NCBI GenBank assembly: GCA_903899985.1
Contig: CAIULL010000033.1
Span: forward strand, 1 to 35,583
Reading direction: 5' to 3'
Source: an uncultured Schlesneria sp.
Lineage (GTDB): Bacteria > Planctomycetota > Planctomycetia > Planctomycetales > Planctomycetaceae
Length of the DNA stretch: 35,583 nucleotides
Shown here: positions 10,537-31,384 of the stretch, piece by piece
Layout of the letters: each line of letters opens with the position of its first letter
How positions within the stretch are numbered: position 1 is the first letter of the stretch
Made by a program: the position numbers and the translations under genes
The notes under the pieces: model-generated
Database searches by the model: none
Seen by the model: only the letters and a program-made list of their open reading frames with translations
Told to the model about the DNA's origin: nothing

Positions 10537-11769
10537 CTATTTGAAATCGACGTGGATCGTTCGGGTTTCGAGGTCCAGGCGAACGTCTGCCGCGTCGAAG
10601 TGTTTCGCCACGAGTGATGTCAGGGCCTGAATATCGGAAACAGGGATAAATCGACAGCGTGTTTTTCCGTTGTTTGGAATCAGTTCGTAATCTGCATCAG
10701 GAACCGAGTTTTTGACCATTGTCATGACCGCCTCTTTAAATGCCGTTAACTCAGGGTCATTCAATTCGCGGTTGACGATACAATAAACAGCATTTCCTTT
10801 CCGAGGCGTGGTGACGGCCTCCCTCATCGATTGTTGCGCCATCTGGGCTCCAAATGCGATTGTAAAAATCAGTGGTGCAACCGCCGCGTTGAATTCGTCG
10901 GAAGTTCTGGCACTTTGCAGTTGTTCGATCATTCCTCCAATTGCATCGATCTGTTTCATATATTCGGGCTTTACCGCCGAGATTCGATGCGGAAATTCAT
11001 CCAGCATGGCTTTGACTTCGGCAACACCAGAAGACCACCCGTTTGCAATTGATTTTGGCAGCCACTTCCCTTCGATCAAAACGAACTCAACTTGCTTCGG
11101 GTCACCATCTTTGGTTTCACGGTAGGACAACGTCGCCGCGGTCGAATCGGATTTAACAGTCATGACTTGTAGATCGCCAAACGGAGGAAGCGGCATTTGT
11201 CGCAACACCTTACTCGCCGACGCCACCAGATCACGGACATTGGCCTGTTTCAGTTTTGACAGGTCTGTCACATCGCTGGATGAAATGTCACGAATTCCGT
11301 TTGCAATCGCATCCCAGTGCGGCTTGATTGACTCAATCTGCGGGTTATTCTTCACTCCGTCCAGACTGAGAATCAGTGTTTTCCTCGACGTTAAGAGATG
11401 GGAGACTTTTGTCAGCAAATTGAACGAAGATGACCAGATTTCGGGATCCATTTTTCCCGCAAAATCATGAACGAGTGAATTAACGTCGGCCTGATACGAA
11501 GGTGGCAAGAAGTCGAAGACAGTTTCAAGTCGCCCTTCTTGAAAGGCGATCAGAGTCTGTTGAAACGTCGATTCTGCAGTCCCTTCCTTCGCTGTACTCA
11601 CGAGCGGAATGGATACGGTTGGTTTCGGCTGTTGACTGGTCTCGTCGATGACCACTGACGCCTTCGTCTGTTTGGCTGGCTCGGGTGCAACGGAGACCGG
11701 CTTAGACTGGCCACAACCCATGATGAATATTAAGGCGCAAAACGACTGTAATTTCATCAATCGATCCAT
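10537..11769 (-). CDS. Hypothetical lipoprotein
   Basis: About 410 residues that I do not recognise. The N-terminus has a lipoprotein signal: a basic start, a hydrophobic stretch and the lipobox IMGC with Cys19 (Met at -2 is unusual), followed by a Pro/Lys/Thr-rich tether to about residue 55. The rest is soluble and mixed alpha/beta, with sequences such as LKQANVRDLVASASKVLRQMP and a tail reading VRLDLETRTIHVDFK. AAAGGA lies about 11 bases before the ATG at 11769; TTG at 11775 and ATG at 11757 are alternatives. It is divergent from uvrA and lies 31 bp upstream of nadB on the same strand. Probably anchored to a membrane facing the periplasm; function unknown. Confidence 0.75.
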   Translation of the reverse strand: MDRLMKLQSFCALIFIMGCGQSKPVSVAPEPAKQTKASVVIDETSQQPKPTVSIPLVSTAKEGTAESTFQQTLIAFQEGRLETVFDFLPPSYQADVNSLVHDFAGKMDPEIWSSSFNLLTKVSHLLTSRKTLILSLDGVKNNPQIESIKPHWDAIANGIRDISSSDVTDLSKLKQANVRDLVASASKVLRQMPLPPFGDLQVMTVKSDSTAATLSYRETKDGDPKQVEFVLIEGKWLPKSIANGWSSGVAEVKAMLDEFPHRISAVKPEYMKQIDAIGGMIEQLQSARTSDEFNAAVAPLIFTIAFGAQMAQQSMREAVTTPRKGNAVYCIVNRELNDPELTAFKEAVMTMVKNSVPDADYELIPNNGKTRCRFIPVSDIQALTSLVAKHFDAADVRLDLETRTIHVDFK

Positions 11770-11911
11770 TTGCAATCCATTCCTTTAAAGACGGCGTATC
11801 AATCGCCAGTGACTCTGACGGAGTCCAGCCAGTTCCCGAAGAATCATAACGAATCCCAAGACAAAAGAAGAACCCTCGTCGCCGAGGTTGTTGATTGACA
11901 ACTGGCAAGAC

Positions 11912-11939: not shown

Positions 11940-12001
11940 TCCTGAAGTCTTGAGCAGATTGCTGGACGACGACTCTTCCTCTATACGGTGTTGTTTTGCC
12001 C

Positions 12002-15000
12002 ATGCCCGCTTCTGATATCGTGATTCTCGGTGCTCGCGAGCATAATCTGCGAAACATCAGTCTGACTTTGCCTCGAAATAAATTGATCGTGATGACAGGG
12101 GTGAGTGGCTCGGGAAAGAGTTCGCTCGCCTTCGACACACTCTATGCGGAAGGGCAGCGCAGGTATGTCGAGTCACTTTCTTCTTATGCACGCCAATTCC
12201 TGGGGCAAATGCCAAAACCTGAGGTCGATTCGATCACGGGTCTGGCACCATCGATCTCGATTCAGCAAAAGGCGAGTGGGCGGAATCCCCGCAGTACCGT
12301 GGGGACAATTACAGAGATCTATGACTACCTGCGGGTCCTTTTTGCTCGCGTGGGGACACCAAATTGCTATCAATGCGGAAGAGCGATTACGGCGCAGACG
12401 CGTGAGCACATTCTCGATAATGTTTTGAGGCTTCCCGAAGGGACCAGGTATCAGGTTCTCGCCCCGCTCGTTCAAAGACAAAAGGGTGAATTCAAAGATT
12501 TATTTGTCGATCTTCTGAAACGCGGCTTTCTGCGAGCTCGTGTCGATGGCAACGTCGTTCAACTGACGGACGATTTGAAACTCGATAAACAAATGAAGCA
12601 TACGATCGACGTTGTGGTCGACCGGCTGATTGCAGGAAAGAGTCCTCGAGCGCGTGTTGCCGAAGCGATCGAAACGGCTCTAAATCTTGCCAAACGGAAA
12701 TTAGTCATTGCCCGTGAAGACGATCGTGATCAAGCCGTCGTTGAGAATCAGGAGGTAGACTCAACCGAATCCGCGCAATTCACGGGTAAAAAGTCGCGAG
12801 TCGAGAGAAAGGGTGCGTCGCGTTCAGAGAAATTACAGGAAGTCGAAGTTGAAACCCAATCAACAATTCCTTTCGAGCAGCTTTATTCCTGCGACTATGC
12901 CTGCACGCATTGTGGTATCAGTTATCAGCAACCTTCTCCGCAACTGTTCAGTTTCAACAGTCCACAAGGAATGTGTGCCGATTGCCAGGGACTTGGGATT
13001 CGGTACGACTTTGCGATTGATCGACTGGTTCCTGACGACAGTCTCACGATTCAGAAAGGTGCGATCGTCGTCCTTGGGAAACTCAGTTCTGTGGGTAAGT
13101 GGCGAAAGCACATTTTGAAAGGGGTTGCCCGAGCGATTGAGATAGACCTCGGATTGGATGAGGACTCGTTTTTCAAGACGAAATGGCGAGATCTTTCCGA
13201 GGCAGCGAAGCATCTGTTCCTTTATGGAACCGGGTCACGAAACATCACGTTTGCCTATCGAACGGGGAACGGTGTCTGGAAACGTGGGGGAACTTACGCC
13301 GGTTTCATACCAGAACTGCTCGAAGAATATCGCAAGACACGTAACCCGATGCGACGTGTCCAACTGGAAAAATACATGCATGAGACCAGATGCGCCAGTT
13401 GCGGCGGCCGTCGTCTGAATAAGGAGGCCAGCAGTTATCGACTCACTTCGAGAAGCGCTGAACTCGCGTTGGATGAACGCCGGGAAGCCATAGAACGCTT
13501 GAACGATCCGGAAAAGAAAGCCAGGCGAGTCCCTTCGACAAACAGCAAATCGACAAACACAAGCTTGGCGCTTTCACTGCCGGAAGTGTGTGCGCTGAGT
13601 ACTTTGGCGGCGTGGTCATTTTTTGATGAGCTCGAACTTTCGGATACGGGACAATTCATTGCGTCCGAGGCATTGAAGGAAATTCGCGGACGGCTGGGCT
13701 TTTTGCTCCGCTGTGGACTGGATTACCTGACTCTCGATAGAACGGCACCGACACTTTCCGGAGGCGAAAGTCAGCGAATCCGTCTGGCCGGACAAATCGG
13801 GTGTGGACTTGTGGGCGTGGTTTATATTCTGGATGAGCCTTCGATTGGTCTTCATCCGCGCGACAACACGATGCTGCTCGACAGTCTTAAAGATCTTCGA
13901 GATCAGGGAAATACCGTCATCGTTGTCGAACACGATGATGAAACGATGAAAGCGGCAGATCATCTGGTTGATTTTGGCCCTGGGCCAGGCGTGCGAGGGG
14001 GAGAAATCGTTGCCGAAGGGAGCGTCGATGATATCAAAAATTCGAAACGGAGCCTGACAGGCGCATTTCTCAGCGGTCGACGGACAATTGAGGTCCCAAA
14101 AGTTCGTCGACCAGGCAACGGGCTCTGCATCGAGATTTACGGCGCCACTCATCATAATCTGCGCAATGTCACTGCTAGATTTCCATTAGGAAAATTCATC
14201 TGCGTGACCGGCGTAAGCGGTTCTGGAAAGAGTTCGCTTGTTAACGATATTCTCTGGGAGGTACTTAATCGCGACGTCAATAAGGGAACCGGGCGACCGG
14301 GCGAATGCGCGAAAATTGCAGGCCTGGAACATATTGATAAGGCGATCGACATCGATCAAAGTCCGATCGGTCGAACCCCTCGATCGAATCCCGCAACTTA
14401 CGTCAAGTTGTTCGATCTGATTCGCGACCTTTACACGCAGTTGCCAGAATCCAAATTGCGTGGGTTTAAGCCAGGTCGTTTTTCGTTCAACGTCCCGGGC
14501 GGACGTTGTGAAGCGTGTGAAGGAAACGGTTCTAACAAGCTCGAAATGGACTTTCTCGCCGACATCTGGGTGACATGTCCAGTTTGCCAGGGGAAACGCT
14601 TTAACAAAGAGACGCTTGAGGTTCGTTTCAAGGGAAAGTCTGTCAACGATGTCCTACAGCTGGATATTCAGCAGGCGCTCGAGCATTTCGAACATCAACC
14701 AAAACTCATGAAATCTTTGCAAACGTTGCATGACGTGGGACTAGACTACATTAAGCTAGGCCAACCATCACCGACTTTATCCGGTGGTGAAGCCCAGCGC
14801 GTGAAGTTAGCAAAAGAACTTAGTAAGCGTTCGACAGGCAAAACGGTCTACATTCTCGATGAGCCAACAACCGGACTTCACTTTGTCGATATTGAGCACC
14901 TGCTGCGCGTTTTGCACGGATTTGTTGATGCTGGCAACACTGTCATCGTAGTTGAACATAATCTGGATGTGATCAAAACAGCAGACTGGATCATCGATCT

Positions 15001-18000
15001 TGGTCCTGAAGGAGGATCAGGCGGTGGGCGAATCCTGGTCGAAGGGACGCCCGAAGAAGTCATGCGGTGTGAGGAATCTTATACAGGTAAGGCATTGCGC
15101 ACTGTACCCGGACTCGTACCAGCCGAATCAGGTTCACCCCCAAAACCAAAAAGGAAAACTGCCGCGATCAACGTTTCCAGCGTCATAAATTCGAAGCCAG
15201 GTTCGCGTTGGCAGACCTCCGTACCGTTACGACAATCGACAGATGGGGCAGAGACTTCGATTGTTGTGCGCGGCGCGGCGCAACACAATTTGCAACACCT
15301 GAATCTGAATATCCCCCGAGATCAAATGAGCGTTTTTTGTGGTCCGAGTGGTTCCGGAAAAAGTTCGCTCGCAATGGACACGCTCTACGCGGAAGGACAA
15401 CGTCGATACGTTGAATCGCTATCGTCATACGCGAGGCAGTTTCTCGGCCAGATGCCAAAGCCAAGGGTTGACCACATTCACGGATTGCAGCCGTCGATTG
15501 CAATCGAACAAAAAACCGTTGGACACACCCCTCGTTCGACAGTTGGCACAGTCACAGAAATTTATGATTACCTGCGAATCCTGTATGCTCGACTGGGGAC
15601 GCAATACTGTCCTGACTGTGAAATCCCCGTCAAATCGCAAACCATCGATGACGTCATTGAGCGTCTGATCGAGCTCGGTAACAACGTTGACTCAACCAGC
15701 GATCAGAAAACTTCCGAAATGAATGCGGCCAGTACGCCTGATTCAATTCGGGCTCTCGTACTTGCTCCGCAAGAAGTCGCAGTTGGTCAACAATACACAA
15801 AGCTGTGGGAACGACTCCGCGATCAGGGGTTCCGGAGAGTTCGAATCAATGGAGCGACTTACCTGTTGGAAGACGTGCCGGACATCGATCGAAAGCGAAA
15901 ACACAATGTTGAGATCGTCATTGACCGAATCACAATTTCCAGATCAACCCGATCTCGCCTGGCGGAATCAGTCGAACTCGCGTTCGATCTGGGCAAGGGA
16001 TTGATTCGAGTCGCGATTGTTGATGACAATCGTGAGGAAAAGAAGTGGAAAATCCTTCCATTCAGCCTGTTTCGTGCCTGTGAATCGTGTGGGCGTGGAT
16101 TTGAAGAGCTTGCCCCTCATAACTTTTCTTTCAACAGCCCACTCGGTTGGTGTAGTACCTGCGAGGGGATCGGTATTCAACAAGGAACAAATCTTGCTGC
16201 ACTTGTTTCGGATCAGACAAGTTCGTTATTACAGGGTGCCGTCAGTGCCTGGCCGGACCCGGTGAAATCGCCACTCTTTCGACTTATGCTCGAATCAATG
16301 GCAAAGGAATGCGATATCCCGCTGAATGTTCCTTTTTCCCAGCTTGATCCGCTTCAACAACGAGCCGTATTGTTTGGCACCGGTGATACGTGGTTTCCTT
16401 TAGCGAAATCATTGGTTGACCAGGTTTCTCGACCTTCTAAAAGCAAATCAAAGTCGTCGTCAGTCGCTGCTTCCAGGCCAACTTCCGGGGGAAGCGTTCG
16501 CTTTCAGTATAAAGGGCTTTATCCGGCAATTGAGCAAGCAGCGAGCCTTTCATACGACCACCGCATGAAACTCTTCGGACTTGTCGGTGACGTTCCCTGC
16601 TCCACATGTAACGGAAGTCGATTACGCGACGATGCGAGTTTCGTGAAAGTCGGATCTCAGACGAAGGGGACTGTCGATGCGGAACAGATCACAAATCGGT
16701 CTAACTCGATAACGAATTCCAATGGGAGTGCATCAGGTAAGACGCTAAAACAAGTTTGTGATCTGCCACTGAAAGATGCGTTCGAATTCTTACGTGAGCT
16801 GAAATTGACAGCGTCACAGAAGCGGGTCGGTGGAGACCTTCTCGCCGAAGCGACGTCGAGGTTGAAGTTTCTCATCGACGTCGGCCTTCACTACCTGACA
16901 CTTGGCCGAACCTTGCCAACGTTGTCCGGCGGCGAAACACAGCGAATTCGACTTGCCGGTCAAATCGGCCGTGCATTGACTGGCGTCCTTTATGTTCTGG
17001 ATGAACCGACAATCGGTCTGCATCCCAGCGATAACGGTCGTCTGCTGACGGCGCTCGTAAAACTTCGCGATTTGGGCAATACGATTGTCATGGTTGAACA
17101 TGATCGCGATGTCCTGAAAGCAGCCGATCGGTTATATGATTTTGGTCCGGCGGCCGGTCGATTTGGCGGAACCATTACTGCTCAAGGAACCCCTCGCGAA
17201 ATTCAAAAAAGCGATCTGTCGCTTACCGGAAAATATCTCTCGGGTCGTGAAGAGATTGTCGTCCCAAAACAACGACGGATGCAGCGAATTACGGTCCAAC
17301 AGACTTCGGACGTCGCGAAATCACGGTCGAAAAAGGTGATTAAGCAAACTAAGGCGCTTATTTCCGAGATCGGGCGGGTTGCCGACATCGTCGACGAAGC
17401 CCCTCTCTCATTGGTGAGTGATCAAGCTTCGTACCATACTCCTCCAGGAGGTGGTTGGCTCGAACTGTTAGGGGCTCGACAGCATAATTTGCGAAACGTC
17501 GACTTAAGAATTCCTCTCGGGACGCTGACTGCCATAACGGGCGTAAGCGGAAGCGGTAAGAGCTCACTGATTGATGACACATTGGCCCGTGCGATCGCTC
17601 AAAAGCTGAACCGCGCCACGGCACAACCAGGTCCCTATGACGAACTGAACGGCCTTCAATTCCTCAGCAAAATCATTGTGGTGGACCAGCAACCGCTTGG
17701 GACGACACCTGCATCAAATCCAGCGACATACACCGGTGTTTTCGAACATATTCGCGAACTATTCTCACGAATGCCCGAAGCAAAGGTGCGCGGATTCAGT
17801 GCCACTCGTTTCAGTTTCAATCGAGCAGGCGGACGCTGTGAAGCCTGTGAAGGAAATGGTCAAAAGCTTATTGAAATGCACTTCCTGCCTGATATCTGGG
17901 TGGAATGTGATACCTGTCGAGGAAAGCGATACAACGCCGAAACACTCGCCGTCACCTATCGTGGTCAAAGTATTGCCGACGTGCTGGCGATGTCGATCGG

Positions 18001-19579
18001 ACAGGCATTGGAATTGTTTGATAACATTCCGAAAATTCGTGGTCCTTTATCTGTTTTAGCAGCGATCGGACTTGACTACCTCACTCTCGGACAGCCGGCA
18101 CCAACGTTGTCCGGCGGAGAGGCCCAACGAGTTAAACTAGCTGCCGAACTGGCTCGACCGCAGTCAGGAAAAACGCTTTATCTTCTGGATGAACCAACCA
18201 CCGGATTACATTTTGATGACATTCGCAAACTGTTGAAGATTCTCAATAGCCTCGTCGATGCTGGAAATACGGTCGTCGTAATTGAACATAATCTCGACGT
18301 GATAAAGACGGTTGATTGGATTGTCGATCTGGGCCCACAAGCGGGTGCCGAAGGTGGTTGGATCGTTGCTGAAGGAACGCCTGAAGATGTCGCTCATCGC
18401 GCGATTAACCGCTTGAATTCGAATCTTGAAACTCGCCAATCAATTGGGGGCAAGCGAAAAAAAGCATCGTCCATCTCGCTTGCTGTTTCCGATGACTGCG
18501 ATCAGCAGGCAACGACGGCAGATCACCGTAGTTTTACGGGCGAAATTCTTGCAAAGGTTCTAGCGGAGGGAGGTCGCGGCGACCGCGAGACGTTTGACGC
18601 AGAAGCTGTTCGTAAGAAAAAAGCAGGTGACCTTGATCCGACAAAAATCGGCGCGGATGCCAAGATGCCATGGGAAGTCGATGGGCGAAAGTGGCATACG
18701 ATCGATGGGTTAGCGAACAATGGTAAATCGCGGCGATGGAAAGGTGCAATTCTCGCCCGTATCATCGATGAACTGGAATCGTCAGAGAAGTTCAACCCGA
18801 CGAACTGGAATGAACGCAGTACAGTTGAAGTGGCAGCCAAATCCAAAGGGGTTGGCTGGTTCCTGCATGCGTATACGGGTGACGAATGGTTGTTGACGTT
18901 AAAATTTCGCGTTCCCAAGCGAACCTTCACTGAAGCGACACTCATCAACGAACTTGGGCTCAAAGACGTAAATGATCTCGATGAAATCCCGGTCTATAAT
19001 CGTCAACCACGCGTTCGAATTCGTCCATCCACAAATGGGCCGTTTGAAGACGTTACGATTTCAATTGTCGATATTGCTGAGACCGAGACCGTAGCATTTC
19101 GAAGTTTTTTTGCGAGGTCCGTAAAATCGTTTGTTGATCGAACCAATCCCGAGTCACTGAATCTCGAAGATTTGACTCCTTGGAAAAAACTCGGTCGAAA
19201 ATGGCATTTCATGCGCAAGGGTTTTCTTCAGGGCGCGATTGGATGGGAGCCTATCGTGCTGGAAGAACTTGCGTCTCTTCTCAGCGAACTCCTTCCGTCG
19301 GCTGAAGTTGATTGGACGCAAAAGATTGTCGTGAACTATTCGATCGATAAAACCCCAAAAGCATCGCTCGTGACAAAGCGACCGTCGTCCTTAGAACTGG
19401 GAATCATCGTCAAATCGGGCACGGTCCAGTTGGGACAAATTTCAACCTTGGGAATCGATCGCGAAATCTCATCGCGCGACAACAGTGGATTCGATGTGAT
19501 TCGCCTGCGGTTTACTGACGTGGAACAGGTAAAGTCACTGGATTTGCGAAGGTTTTTGTCGGAGCAATGGAAACGATGA
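12002..19579 (+). CDS. uvrA: Tandem-fused excinuclease ABC subunit A (double UvrA) with duplicated C-terminal extension
   Basis: A 2525-residue protein, about 2.7 times the usual UvrA (~940), which detects DNA damage for nucleotide excision repair with UvrB and UvrC. It holds two complete UvrA units: residues 1 to about 1031 and about 1083-2187, joined by a Pro/Lys/Ser-rich linker. All four ATPase sites look intact: Walker A at 33, 737, 1114 (GPSGSGKSS) and 1847; LSGGE at 585, 926, 1641 and 2036; Walker B Asp at 611, 953, 1667 and 2063. The CxxC zinc-finger pairs are kept in both halves (CTHC/CADC, CEAC/CPVC, CESC/CSTC, CEAC/CDTC). Low-complexity inserts sit near residues 238-285, 1228-1248, 1477-1500, 1547-1581 and 1754-1817. 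Residues 2188-2525 form an unrecognised extension with GRKWH at 2228-2232 and 2398-2402. ATG 12002 is preferred to TTG 11996. A single chain could replace the UvrA dimer; that is inference. Confidence 0.95.
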
Positions 19580-27014: not shown

Positions 27015-28604
27015 ATGACGCAACGAAACTCCGAAAGCGAATGCTCATCGTCACAACGAATGCTGTCAAGCGACTGGTTACTTTGTGATTGGATTCCCTT
27101 GCATTTACGAGCTTCGGTCGGATTTGTCGGAATGACGTTTGTTCTTGGGCTTCTTTACTCTTACCTCTGTTCCCTTCCTTTATGGCATACGGACATCTGG
27201 GGGCATCTCAGCTACGGACGATTCATCTGGGAGACAAAAACGTTACCTGCGACCGAACCATTTTTACCTCTTTCAAAAGGGATTCCAATTATTGATGGTC
27301 CTTGGCTCAGCCAATTGATTGGATTCGCCATTATCAGCACTCCGCGGCTTCAACTTGCTGGTTTACAAGGATTATTTGCGATCATGGTGACATCATGCGG
27401 CGCAATGTTATCTTGGAGTTCTTATGTCCAGACTAAAAGCAGTTTATTCGCGTTTCTGACGCTGAGCGTTTTTTTGCTTGTCGGCTCGGACCACCTGATG
27501 ATCTTGCGACCTCAGCTGGCAGGAACAGTCTGTTTCGTTTTCGTTTTAACGCGCCTGTCATGTTATCCATGCTCTAAATCAAACTGGGTCGTCATTCCAG
27601 CTGTCTTTGTTCTGTGGGCAAATCTCCATCCATCGTTTCTTGTCGGAATTGGCTTTCTTGGATGCCTCTGGTTGGGCCGTAATGTGGATTTGATTATACG
27701 GACGCGCAGCGTTAGAGGCTGTTTACACGACAGTCATTCTCACCGTTTTTTTTTGTTAATGATTCTTGCAGCTGCTGCGGTGCTCATTAACCCGTACACA
27801 TTTCGGCTTTACCAAGAAGCACTATTTTTCTCGGCGAACAAGAATTTGCAAGATTTATCCGAATGGCAGCCGTTGACGATCAAAGACCCTCTTGGGCAGA
27901 TCATTGCCGGCATGGCAATCATTCTGGCTGCTGTTTGTCGCGTATCTCCCCGGAGGGTTCGGTACTGGGAAGTCTTGACTTCATTAAGTCTTGGACTTGC
28001 AACACTATGGTGCTCTCGCATGGTTGTGTGGTTAGCCCCGGTTATTGCATTGATCGTTACTCGCCACGCATTTGCAGTCTGGCGCAAATTGACTTGTGTA
28101 AGTCGTGTCTTGGCGCAGCCCGTTCGAAGTTCGAAATGGTCATTGATTGCGTTGGTTGGAACATTTTTTCTTCTCAGTCCGCTTGGGATTGCAGTCCTGA
28201 CTGGAAAACAAGAAGCCACGATTCATTCGTTGTCCAAAGAGACTCCTGTTTTTACTGCCGAGTATCTAAACGAAAACCCGCCCAGTGGGATGGTTTTCGC
28301 CACATACGAATGGGCCGATTACCTGCAATGGGCTGGGCCTGAAAACATGCATTTATTTGTTAATTCCCACGCTCATCTTATTCCACGTGACGTCTGGCTT
28401 GCCTATATGACTGTAATTGAGCAAAGAGTCGGGTGGAAAGAGATTCTTGATTTCTACCAGATCAACACGCTTATTTTGGACAGAGCAAATCGCGAGCCGC
28501 TAATTGAGACGCTGAAAATCGACCCCACATGGATTTCACCACCCATCGAATGGGAGGGTCAGGTTATTTTTACTCGCAAACCTTTGGAAATTGATCACAA
28601 ATGA
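27015..28604 (+). CDS. Polytopic membrane protein, GT-C glycosyltransferase-like
   Basis: A 529-residue integral membrane protein with nine or ten predicted helices from about residue 33 to 405, followed by a soluble C-terminal domain of about 120 residues. An acidic-aromatic motif after the first helix (LWHTDIWGHLSYGRFIWE, residues 56-73) resembles the first-loop D-x-D/D-x-H position of GT-C glycosyltransferases, and PWLSQLIG and ANLHPSFLVGI fit proteins of this kind. GT-C enzymes use lipid-linked sugar donors at the outer membrane face; that role here is inference. The start at 27015 has no good Shine-Dalgarno, and Met16 is an alternative. It is divergent from surE and followed two bases after its stop by a hairpin. 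Confidence 0.7.
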   Translation: MTQRNSESECSSSQRMLSSDWLLCDWIPLHLRASVGFVGMTFVLGLLYSYLCSLPLWHTDIWGHLSYGRFIWETKTLPATEPFLPLSKGIPIIDGPWLSQLIGFAIISTPRLQLAGLQGLFAIMVTSCGAMLSWSSYVQTKSSLFAFLTLSVFLLVGSDHLMILRPQLAGTVCFVFVLTRLSCYPCSKSNWVVIPAVFVLWANLHPSFLVGIGFLGCLWLGRNVDLIIRTRSVRGCLHDSHSHRFFLLMILAAAAVLINPYTFRLYQEALFFSANKNLQDLSEWQPLTIKDPLGQIIAGMAIILAAVCRVSPRRVRYWEVLTSLSLGLATLWCSRMVVWLAPVIALIVTRHAFAVWRKLTCVSRVLAQPVRSSKWSLIALVGTFFLLSPLGIAVLTGKQEATIHSLSKETPVFTAEYLNENPPSGMVFATYEWADYLQWAGPENMHLFVNSHAHLIPRDVWLAYMTVIEQRVGWKEILDFYQINTLILDRANREPLIETLKIDPTWISPPIEWEGQVIFTRKPLEIDHK

Positions 28605-29476: not shown

Positions 29477-31384
29477 ATGAGCGCCTGTCATACGAGGAAG
29501 TCATCGAACGAAGCGTTTTGGTATCGACAGCGATTGAATCGGTTGGTGTTTGTCTTCTTGTTCGGATTGAGTTGGACCGGACTGGCTTCGTTCGCAACCG
29601 CTCTGGACGTGGCGGATTACAAATGGGGATTCAACGGTAAAGTTGCTCCACACCGTTTCAATGTCCTCTCAGTGCTGCTTAACAATCCGACGCCTCAGCC
29701 TTACAACGGCGAGGTGCTTTTGCGGAAATCGCTCGGCGGAGCCGGAACCGTCGATGCGACTCTTGTCGAATCGGTCACTTTGTCTCCGAATTCGTCAAAG
29801 TGGATCCAGTTTTATCCATACATTACTAGCGACGGTGGGTTCAGCAGTGAGAACTGGCGAATTTCGTATCGAGGAGGCAGCTATGACTTGCCAATCCCAC
29901 GTATCGCCAAGTACCAACGAATTGTCCTCGATGATCCTAACAGTGTGATGGCCAAGGGTGGTTCGATCAAATTTCATCTGCCCGACAACCTGTTTCCGCC
30001 GTTTGTGACTGCGACAGATGCGCTGCAGCTGGTCGCACTTGATCACGTCCCTCGCTGGGAGGAAGCAAGACGTCAGGCGTTTCTTGATTGGATCTACCTC
30101 GGCGGAACGGTTGTTATCCTGCAAGAGGCAAGCGGCAAATTTCCTGACTTCAATGGACCGCTCGTCGTTCTTAAAACTTCCCTCGAAGATCAGATGTATG
30201 GTGCTGGACGCGTTCTTCGAATTCCATTGACTCGACCGCAGTTCGGTGACGAAGAGCTTCGGCAAATCTGCGCCGGGCTACCCAAAAATTACCATGCTCC
30301 GAACACAGAAAAGTCTGATGACATCATCGACCATGTTGATGAGTCTCAACAAATCACACCAAACCAGAATTTCGGTTACGGAGACGGGACCGACCCGTTC
30401 AAGTCGAATTCGTTCCTCAGTCAACTTAAGCAGATGACCAAGCCGGATCACAATTGGGTTCTTCTGCACCTGATGTTCTGGGTTTATATCGGTCTCGTGT
30501 TCCCCGGTTGTTATCTTCTTGGAAAGAAATGGTCTGATTTTCGCGTCGTCTACGCTGGCTTGCTTGGCACGGTGGCGCTTTTCAGCTTGCTGTTTTCTTA
30601 CGTAGGCCAGCGAGGTTACGGCGAGGCGACTGCAGTTCATACCGTTGCTGTCGCCAAACCATTGCCTGACGGCCAGATGGACGTTGCGAGCTGGTCAAAT
30701 ATTTTCGTAACGGGAGGTGCAGACTATGAGATCCGCCACAACGCTTCTGGTTCACTCTATTCGACGTGCAACGAACACGAACAGGTGAAAGGTGAAATTA
30801 ACAACGGGGCCGAAGCGGTATTCAAGGTCGATATCCCCCCGTTTTCTAACCGTGAATTGGCGGCGCGAACGAAAATGCCGTTCGAAGGCCCAAAGCTCAC
30901 AATGTCTTCGCTGAAACTGCAGGATGGCCGGTTGGCAGAACTTGAGATTGACGTCGTCGGGCTGAAACAAGCGGAAGTCGAAAAACAGTATGTGTTAATT
31001 GGTAACACGTTCTACATGCTCAACTGGCGAGAAGACAAACTCGTATTGGCCCATGAGGCGGGAAACGCTGTGGCGATGTTGCGAGTTCAAGAAAAGCACA
31101 ATCAATATCCTTATTATCAAAACCCTTACAACCAATACGGCAATCAAGCAACGAAGGGAGAACGATATAACCAGATGTTCGATCTGTTGCTGTCTCGCAG
31201 TCTGAGCGTCAGTCGCGTGAGAGACGCGGAACAGTTGCGACTGCCACCCAATATGATTCGCATCTACATCTATGCGAAAATGCCGGGTGAGTTCGCCGTG
31301 CAGAACAATCGACTGGGAAATCAGGAAGGCCGGGTTTTGTACTGTATCAACTTATCAACATCAGATTTCAAAGCATCCAAATGA
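29477..31384 (+). CDS. Exported, membrane-anchored protein of the ABC cluster
   Basis: A 635-residue protein with no named family that I can assign. Residues 1-42 are a signal peptide or anchor (hydrophobic VFVFLFGLSWTGLASFATA). Residues 43 to about 325 form an extracytoplasmic region containing WEEARRQAFLDWIYLGGTVVI, a pattern seen in GATase-like-fold proteins next to GldA/GldG-type ABC systems. Two membrane helices follow at about 327-347 and 357-378. The rest is soluble and includes a Tyr/Asn/Gln-rich stretch at about 542-557 (NQYPYYQNPYNQYGN). GGAGAGGG lies 9 bases before the ATG. The ABC ATPase starts 173 bp downstream and the permease follows, so it probably works with that transporter, perhaps as its extracytoplasmic component. 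Confidence is in the gene, not in the function. Confidence 0.75.
   Translation: MSACHTRKSSNEAFWYRQRLNRLVFVFLFGLSWTGLASFATALDVADYKWGFNGKVAPHRFNVLSVLLNNPTPQPYNGEVLLRKSLGGAGTVDATLVESVTLSPNSSKWIQFYPYITSDGGFSSENWRISYRGGSYDLPIPRIAKYQRIVLDDPNSVMAKGGSIKFHLPDNLFPPFVTATDALQLVALDHVPRWEEARRQAFLDWIYLGGTVVILQEASGKFPDFNGPLVVLKTSLEDQMYGAGRVLRIPLTRPQFGDEELRQICAGLPKNYHAPNTEKSDDIIDHVDESQQITPNQNFGYGDGTDPFKSNSFLSQLKQMTKPDHNWVLLHLMFWVYIGLVFPGCYLLGKKWSDFRVVYAGLLGTVALFSLLFSYVGQRGYGEATAVHTVAVAKPLPDGQMDVASWSNIFVTGGADYEIRHNASGSLYSTCNEHEQVKGEINNGAEAVFKVDIPPFSNRELAARTKMPFEGPKLTMSSLKLQDGRLAELEIDVVGLKQAEVEKQYVLIGNTFYMLNWREDKLVLAHEAGNAVAMLRVQEKHNQYPYYQNPYNQYGNQATKGERYNQMFDLLLSRSLSVSRVRDAEQLRLPPNMIRIYIYAKMPGEFAVQNNRLGNQEGRVLYCINLSTSDFKASK

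Follow-up and report, generated by a model that had tools for sequence, protein, structure and literature searches.

The tandem UvrA gene of the window

The window, i.e. the whole stretch of 35,583 nucleotides analysed here, contains on its forward strand a gene (positions 11996-19579) encoding a tandem UvrA with a C-terminal extension. Few bacterial repair proteins have been studied as thoroughly as UvrA. Translated from a TTG codon to a TGA stop, the gene product comprises 2527 amino acids and is matched by the models NF001503 and TIGR00630. An in-frame ATG at position 12002 yields a protein of 2525 amino acids, and this ATG numbering was used in a preliminary description of the DNA. The first UvrA unit (11996-15103, forward strand; residues 1-1036, TTG numbering) has Walker A motifs at residues 35 and 739 and ABC signatures at residues 587 and 928. 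The second unit (15224-18556, forward strand; residues 1077-2187, TTG numbering) has Walker A motifs at residues 1116 and 1849 and signatures at residues 1643 and 2038. All four Walker A motifs and all four LSGGE signatures are intact, and each unit possesses two ATPase cores. The UvrA equivalog model TIGR00630 gives 1271.9 bits for unit 1 and 1155.8 bits (joined) for unit 2, both of which are above the cut-off of 729.8. Moreover, two stretches of the protein match the UvrB-binding domain (PF17760) and two match the DNA-binding insertion domain (PF17755), and the translation shows some C-x2-C pairs, of the sort that form the three zinc modules of a UvrA unit. The usual working form of UvrA is a dimer (PMC7835731). 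The protein encoded in the window is an intact tandem UvrA, i.e. a UvrA dimer that is made as a single chain.

Several additional observations concern the UvrA units and their surroundings. In 9 of the 37 aligned tandem UvrAs (L040, L041, L045, L047, L050, L051, L052, L057 and L154), LSNGE takes the place of LSGGE as the first ABC signature of unit 2, which, as far as the alignment tells, suggests a functional asymmetry between the units. A stretch of unit 2 near the UvrB-binding domain (about residues 1215-1330) is 116 amino acids long in the window, 123 in L036 and 96 in most of the other aligned tandem UvrAs, pointing to a small insertion that may have occurred near the lineage of the window. 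A loss of Walker A from unit 2, which had been suspected from a pattern allowing GxxGxGKS only, was rejected; the motif reads GKT in the sequences concerned. The genome of the window (G000) has two more UvrA-type genes for 852 and 818 amino acids on the contigs C113 (L089, L092) and C283 (L091, L093). Their products score above the UvrA cut-off and lack the module described below. Finally, three long frames near the tandem UvrA gene (10540-11775, reverse strand; 27015-28601 and 29477-31381, forward strand) had no Pfam match at an E value of 1e-5.

Two homologous modules at the C-terminus

Some 340 residues follow unit 2, which closes near residue 2187. A link (18557-18640, forward strand; residues 2188-2215, TTG numbering), which is modelled with low confidence, leads to module 1 (18641-19153, forward strand; residues 2216-2386, TTG numbering), and module 2 (19154-19576, forward strand; residues 2387-2527, TTG numbering) completes the chain. 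The preliminary description had reported two 10-residue motifs at residues 2223-2232 and 2393-2402 (ATG numbering), 170 residues apart, and both the positions and the spacing proved to be exact. These signature motifs of module 1 and module 2 are encoded at 18668-18697 and 19178-19207 of the forward strand, respectively, and the latter is followed by the conserved basic stretch FMRKGF. A second pair of motifs, again of 10 residues each, lies at residues 2268-2277 and 2437-2446 (ATG numbering). The helical stretch that was said to follow the motif in both copies is recovered in the predicted structure (H63-75 and H232-245).

The idea that the extension is a duplicated module gains from the comparison of many sequences. 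In a self-comparison of the window sequence alone, the Smith-Waterman score of 49 was reached by 6 out of 1000 shuffles and is only moderately significant. The profiles of copy 1 and copy 2, each derived from 25 sequences, were aligned by hhalign over 137 columns with an E value of 1e-9 and a probability of 96%. The score was 62, whereas 200 column shuffles did not go beyond 23.8 and the reversed profile scored 10.1, and the duplication of the module is thus firmly established. Ten columns (P10, W11, G15, W18, H19, G28, W33, L38, W56 and T79) do not vary across 16 module sequences from both copies, and the copies share the pattern P-W-x3-G-x2-W-H ... G ... W ... L ... W ... T. The alignment of the extension from 25 sequences, from which the near-copies L053 and L054 were left out (L043 as well in the module sets), has 47 invariant columns.

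The duplication is old, since the sole direct DNA repeat that was found in the extension consists of two 14-base stretches, which are 32 bases apart. A tree was calculated from 34 first and 36 second modules. It covers G559 and G582 with their extension frames as well as the out-of-class carriers G118 and G186, whose second modules are weak matches of 18.6 and 15.3 bits. In this tree, a single branch with full SH-aLRT support separates all first from all second modules. The same split of the two kinds was obtained in an earlier tree of 32 first and 33 second modules, which lacked the frames of G559 and G582 as well as the second modules of G118 and G186 owing to a length filter. Since the two copies are separated, G118 and G186 included, a single ancient duplication that predates the split of the class from these out-of-class carriers is most likely, judging from the module sequences.

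The extension had been called unrecognised, and in Pfam, NCBIfam, PHROGs, PADLOC and the sequences of the PDB it indeed has no significant match. Pfam was searched with single members, with 25 members and with typed consensus sequences, and the best E value among the 25 extension members was 0.0068 for HTH_32 (4 of 25). The best values were 0.045 in NCBIfam, 0.0067 in PHROGs (an unnamed family, 7 of 25 members) and 0.81 in the PDB. When the whole protein was used as the query, DUF4350 scored 33.4 bits (cut-off 30.4). This candidate was rejected: the match spans residues 2050-2193, i.e. the last ATPase of unit 2 plus six residues of the extension, and it is absent when the extension is searched alone. 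A mobile origin was rejected as well; plasmids and phages gave no match, and none of the 46 pattern matches in viral contigs was confirmed. A literature search, for which subscription journals and preprints were mostly out of reach, retrieved no description of the extension. The extension is a real, conserved and duplicated domain pair without family assignment on a known protein.

Distribution, selection and partial forms

The extension was detected in 54 of 59 relatives by a search with a single sequence, and the extension profile matched 225 of the 248 genomes of the class (205 of 222 when only genomes with a completeness of 90% or more and a contamination of 5% or less are counted). In a sample of 392 genomes of the phylum, 42 were matched, of which 40 belong to the class, the genome of the window included, and two lie outside (G118 and G186). 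In the class of these two genomes, the extension occurs in 2 out of 9. The suggestion that the domain is specific to a lineage agrees with this distribution. A merged single-module profile again matched 42 of the 392 phylum genomes and, among the matches listed, all lie at the extension loci of UvrA; the search also listed short frames in G144, G248 and G414. In the genome of the window, the module profile has two matches, both within the tandem UvrA gene. A pattern scan of genome contigs, which also reached phyla other than Planctomycetota, used the window sequence as the single query, so that divergent copies could escape it. It gave 26 confirmed loci, of which 25 are titled as planctomycete groups and one (L052) as 'bacterium'.

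Ka/Ks ratios were determined for four pairs of close relatives (NG86). They range from 0.066 to 0.096 for module 1 and from 0.102 to 0.162 for module 2, from 0.055 to 0.076 for unit 1 and from 0.077 to 0.127 for unit 2, from 0.187 to 0.595 for the linker between the units and from 0.015 to 0.272 for the 28-codon link before module 1; dS exceeds 1 in several segments, and L035 and L036, which were only aligned, do not enter the ratios. The values of the modules are close to those of the UvrA units and mostly well below those of the inter-unit linker. Judged by these ratios, the extension is under purifying selection. It has to be considered that the extension is absent or reduced in some members of the class, as would be expected for a functionless read-through product, a misassembly or a decaying remnant. 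However, this explanation is extremely improbable in view of the matches in 225 of 248 class genomes, the Ka/Ks ratios of 0.066-0.162, the 47 invariant columns in 25 sequences and the confident structural model. A read-through or assembly error, which the preliminary description had associated with absence from related UvrAs, is ruled out by the conservation and the Ka/Ks ratios.

Among the 23 class genomes without a match to the extension, 14 were examined. In G466, G480 and G540, the UvrA match runs out close to a contig edge (base 206, 62 and 22, respectively), and these cases may be assembly cuts. A tandem UvrA is retained in G055, G571 and G539, but its tail measures 97, 33 and 42 amino acids, respectively, and has no detectable module. 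Thus, the extension is dispensable for the tandem UvrA. In a quickly calculated tree of the ATPase domains, which has many weak branches and several long-branched rows and lacks the frames of G559 and G582, G055 is placed with extension-bearing relatives of the family f2 (SH-aLRT 93) and G539 inside a mostly extension-bearing group (SH-aLRT 91), while G571 is unplaced. Three domain pieces (G118, G571 and G061) did not group with the others in this tree, probably because their boundaries were cut wrongly. Outside the class, frames of 1903-1943 amino acids with two units are present in 5 of 15 genomes (G061, G063, G071, G073 and G075), and in the two of these tandem UvrAs whose complete sequence was inspected, the chain stops 9 and 2 residues past the point at which the extension starts. 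The simplest reading of these sequences would be one gain of the extension onto an already fused UvrA, followed by losses. A separate observation concerns G455 (L121), whose tandem UvrA has a tail of 301 residues, similar in size to the extension. This tail showed no detectable sequence likeness to the modules (hhalign probabilities of 0.9% and 0.3%), which suggests a diverged or replaced domain; a divergent module is not supported by the profile comparison.

Partial and split forms were found by comparing 39 usable regions. Only module 1 is present in G046, G042 and G559 and only module 2 in G043, G525, G605 and G054. Hence, the module copies can be lost singly. In G559 (L138), module 1 has an insert of about 50 residues, and the tandem UvrA is encoded by two overlapping frames of 1327 and 1144 amino acids with the change within unit 2, which may be due to a frameshift, to fission of the gene or to faulty assembly. 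In G018 (L117, L118) and G519 (L119, L120), the tandem chain is made from two genes that are about 12 kb and 0.8 Mb apart, respectively. Both chains are split at the same point inside unit 2: the first gene ends at residue 1365 of the window protein with a C-x2-C pair and has kept the UvrB-binding domain of unit 2, and the second gene starts at 1367 and encodes the remainder of unit 2 and both modules. In G162 (L115, L116), a piece of unit 2 starts at 1363 and lies far from a piece that starts at about 1803 and carries both modules. In all three split chains, the piece that bears the C-terminal ATPase of unit 2 also bears both modules. The split in these genomes falls between two C-x2-C pairs that resemble one zinc module, and such a putative zinc module would therefore form from two chains. 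No Rfam families were found near the split (six loci, E values up to 1).

These forms bear on the idea that the extension is an intramolecular brace, i.e. that the modules pack on the UvrA units, one on each, and keep the single-chain dimer in a working shape without any outside partner. A brace would suit the presence of two modules for two units, the strict link to UvrA in cis and the retention of the modules on the C-terminal piece of split chains, where it could hold the pieces together. However, both units are kept in genomes that have copy 1 only (G046 and G042) or copy 2 only (G043, G525, G605 and G054), and tandem UvrAs outside the class do without the extension, so that a brace is unlikely.

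Fold, charge and possible role

The whole extension was modelled by AlphaFold2 with a mean pLDDT of 82.3 and a pTM of 0.51, and module 1 alone with a pLDDT of 90.7 and a pTM of 0.86. In both copies, the model of the whole extension has the order helix, three strands, helix, two strands and helices, and copy 2 has a short extra strand. The extension is thus predicted to consist of two repeats rather than of one non-repetitive known fold, in line with the preliminary description. For module 1, no match at an E value of 0.001 or better was obtained by searching the PDB with Foldseek. The best probability (0.92; TM 0.48 by target length, E value 0.029) was assigned to a SycH-type secretion chaperone. 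The likeness to these class I type III secretion chaperones (PDB 1ttw, 4gf3) lies in the order of the elements. We take the order of the chaperones to be helix, three strands, helix, two strands and helix, which is comparable to that of module 1. In contrast to SycH-type chaperones, module 1 has a Trp/His-rich N-terminal segment, and it has neither a sequence match to them nor a secretion context. YbjN (PF10722) and YjbR (PF04237) presumably belong to the same secretion-chaperone-like fold class. A kinship of the module with either family was not found: the hhalign probabilities were 0.10-0.82%, with small alignments of 7 and 4 rows. The YbjN set did not include L169 because of the length of this sequence.

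When the whole extension was used as the query, Foldseek matched the DNA-binding domain of T4 MotA (PDB 1kaf; probability 0.99, E value 0.02, TM 0.53 by target length and 0.20 by query length) and a phage MotA model (probability 0.99, E value 0.0034, TM 0.42). The 50 matches listed for module 1 do not include this C-terminal 'double wing' domain of MotA. In a library of viral structures, one match to the whole extension had an E value of 0.001 or better, an uncharacterised archaeal virus protein with a TM of 0.20. A LAGLIDADG nuclease (E value 0.0008) was rejected, as the TM was only 0.14-0.17. The fold of the extension is therefore modelled with confidence but without a known family; the nearest folds are weak likenesses, and that to MotA appears less firm than that to the chaperones.

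The MotA matches, together with the fact that UvrA acts on DNA, give some weight to the main rival of the reading preferred here, namely that the modules are extra DNA-binding domains, which would give the UvrA dimer a longer footprint or keep it on DNA during the search for damage. The preliminary description had taken the aromatic and basic content to suggest binding of DNA or of a repair protein. The computed net charge is only +0.6 per module at pH 7 with a pI of about 8, and since the net charge is near zero the basic content, taken over the modules as a whole, does not support DNA binding. The one strongly basic and conserved part is a stretch of 16 residues at the N-terminus of copy 2, in which K16, R21 and K22 (module numbering) are invariant and which would favour contact with nucleic acid. 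It speaks against DNA-binding modules that MotA is missing from the matches listed when module 1 was the query, and the other DNA-binding proteins that matched the whole extension (LAGLIDADG nucleases) had TM values of at most 0.25. Taken together, we regard DNA-binding modules as rather less probable than a docking arm, and the internal brace comes next.

The extension is probably a dedicated accessory for repair. More specifically, we tentatively favour, at somewhat less than even chances, a putative docking or regulatory arm in cis of the single-chain UvrA pseudo-dimer, which would serve a repair partner or UvrA itself. Here, the pair of homologous alpha-beta modules on the C-terminus of unit 2, derived from one ancient duplication and a usual part of the protein in the class, would work as an arm dedicated to UvrA. 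The arm may pack near the C-terminal ATPase of unit 2 and dock a partner, be it another repair protein, some portion of UvrA or the DNA beside the lesion. As the fused UvrA is a single-chain dimer, a single C-terminal arm would render it asymmetric, and the docking of a partner would give an otherwise symmetric dimer one special side. Such an arm fits best because of the linkage in cis, the two copies, the neutral charge, the invariant motifs rich in aromatic residues and histidine and the chaperone-like topology. The conservation of the extension (225/248 class genomes and 54/59 relatives), the tie of the modules to UvrA, the purifying selection, the retention of the modules in split chains and the losses of single copies were also counted in its favour. 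We lean towards the docking of a protein because of the weak fold likeness to peptide-binding secretion chaperones and the near-zero charge. The docking arm is weakened by the basic stretch of copy 2, which suits nucleic acid, by the matches to MotA-type domains, by the class members that lack the module and by the out-of-class genomes G118 and G186 that have it. Furthermore, the invariant Trp, Gly and Pro residues may belong to the core rather than to an interface. A more far-reaching proposal, which we consider doubtful, is that the class, after fusion of the dimer, built a new permanent arm of UvrA, i.e. a duplicated domain, not known otherwise, that provides bacterial nucleotide excision repair with its own one-sided recruiting or control element and was kept after re-splitting.

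With its single arm, the one-chain dimer would make it possible to probe whether damage is recognised and UvrB is loaded asymmetrically, which a homodimer does not permit. The fused UvrA of Planctomycetes, with two units in one chain, has already been published (PMC8567305). Neither section 25 of that paper nor its Figure 13 legend mentions the C-terminal extension. The paper used Pfam 32, and the extension is still without a significant match in a 2025 copy of Pfam. In our judgement, the list of UvrA domains is usually treated as complete; most of the sampled genomes of the class add to it a conserved, duplicated domain.
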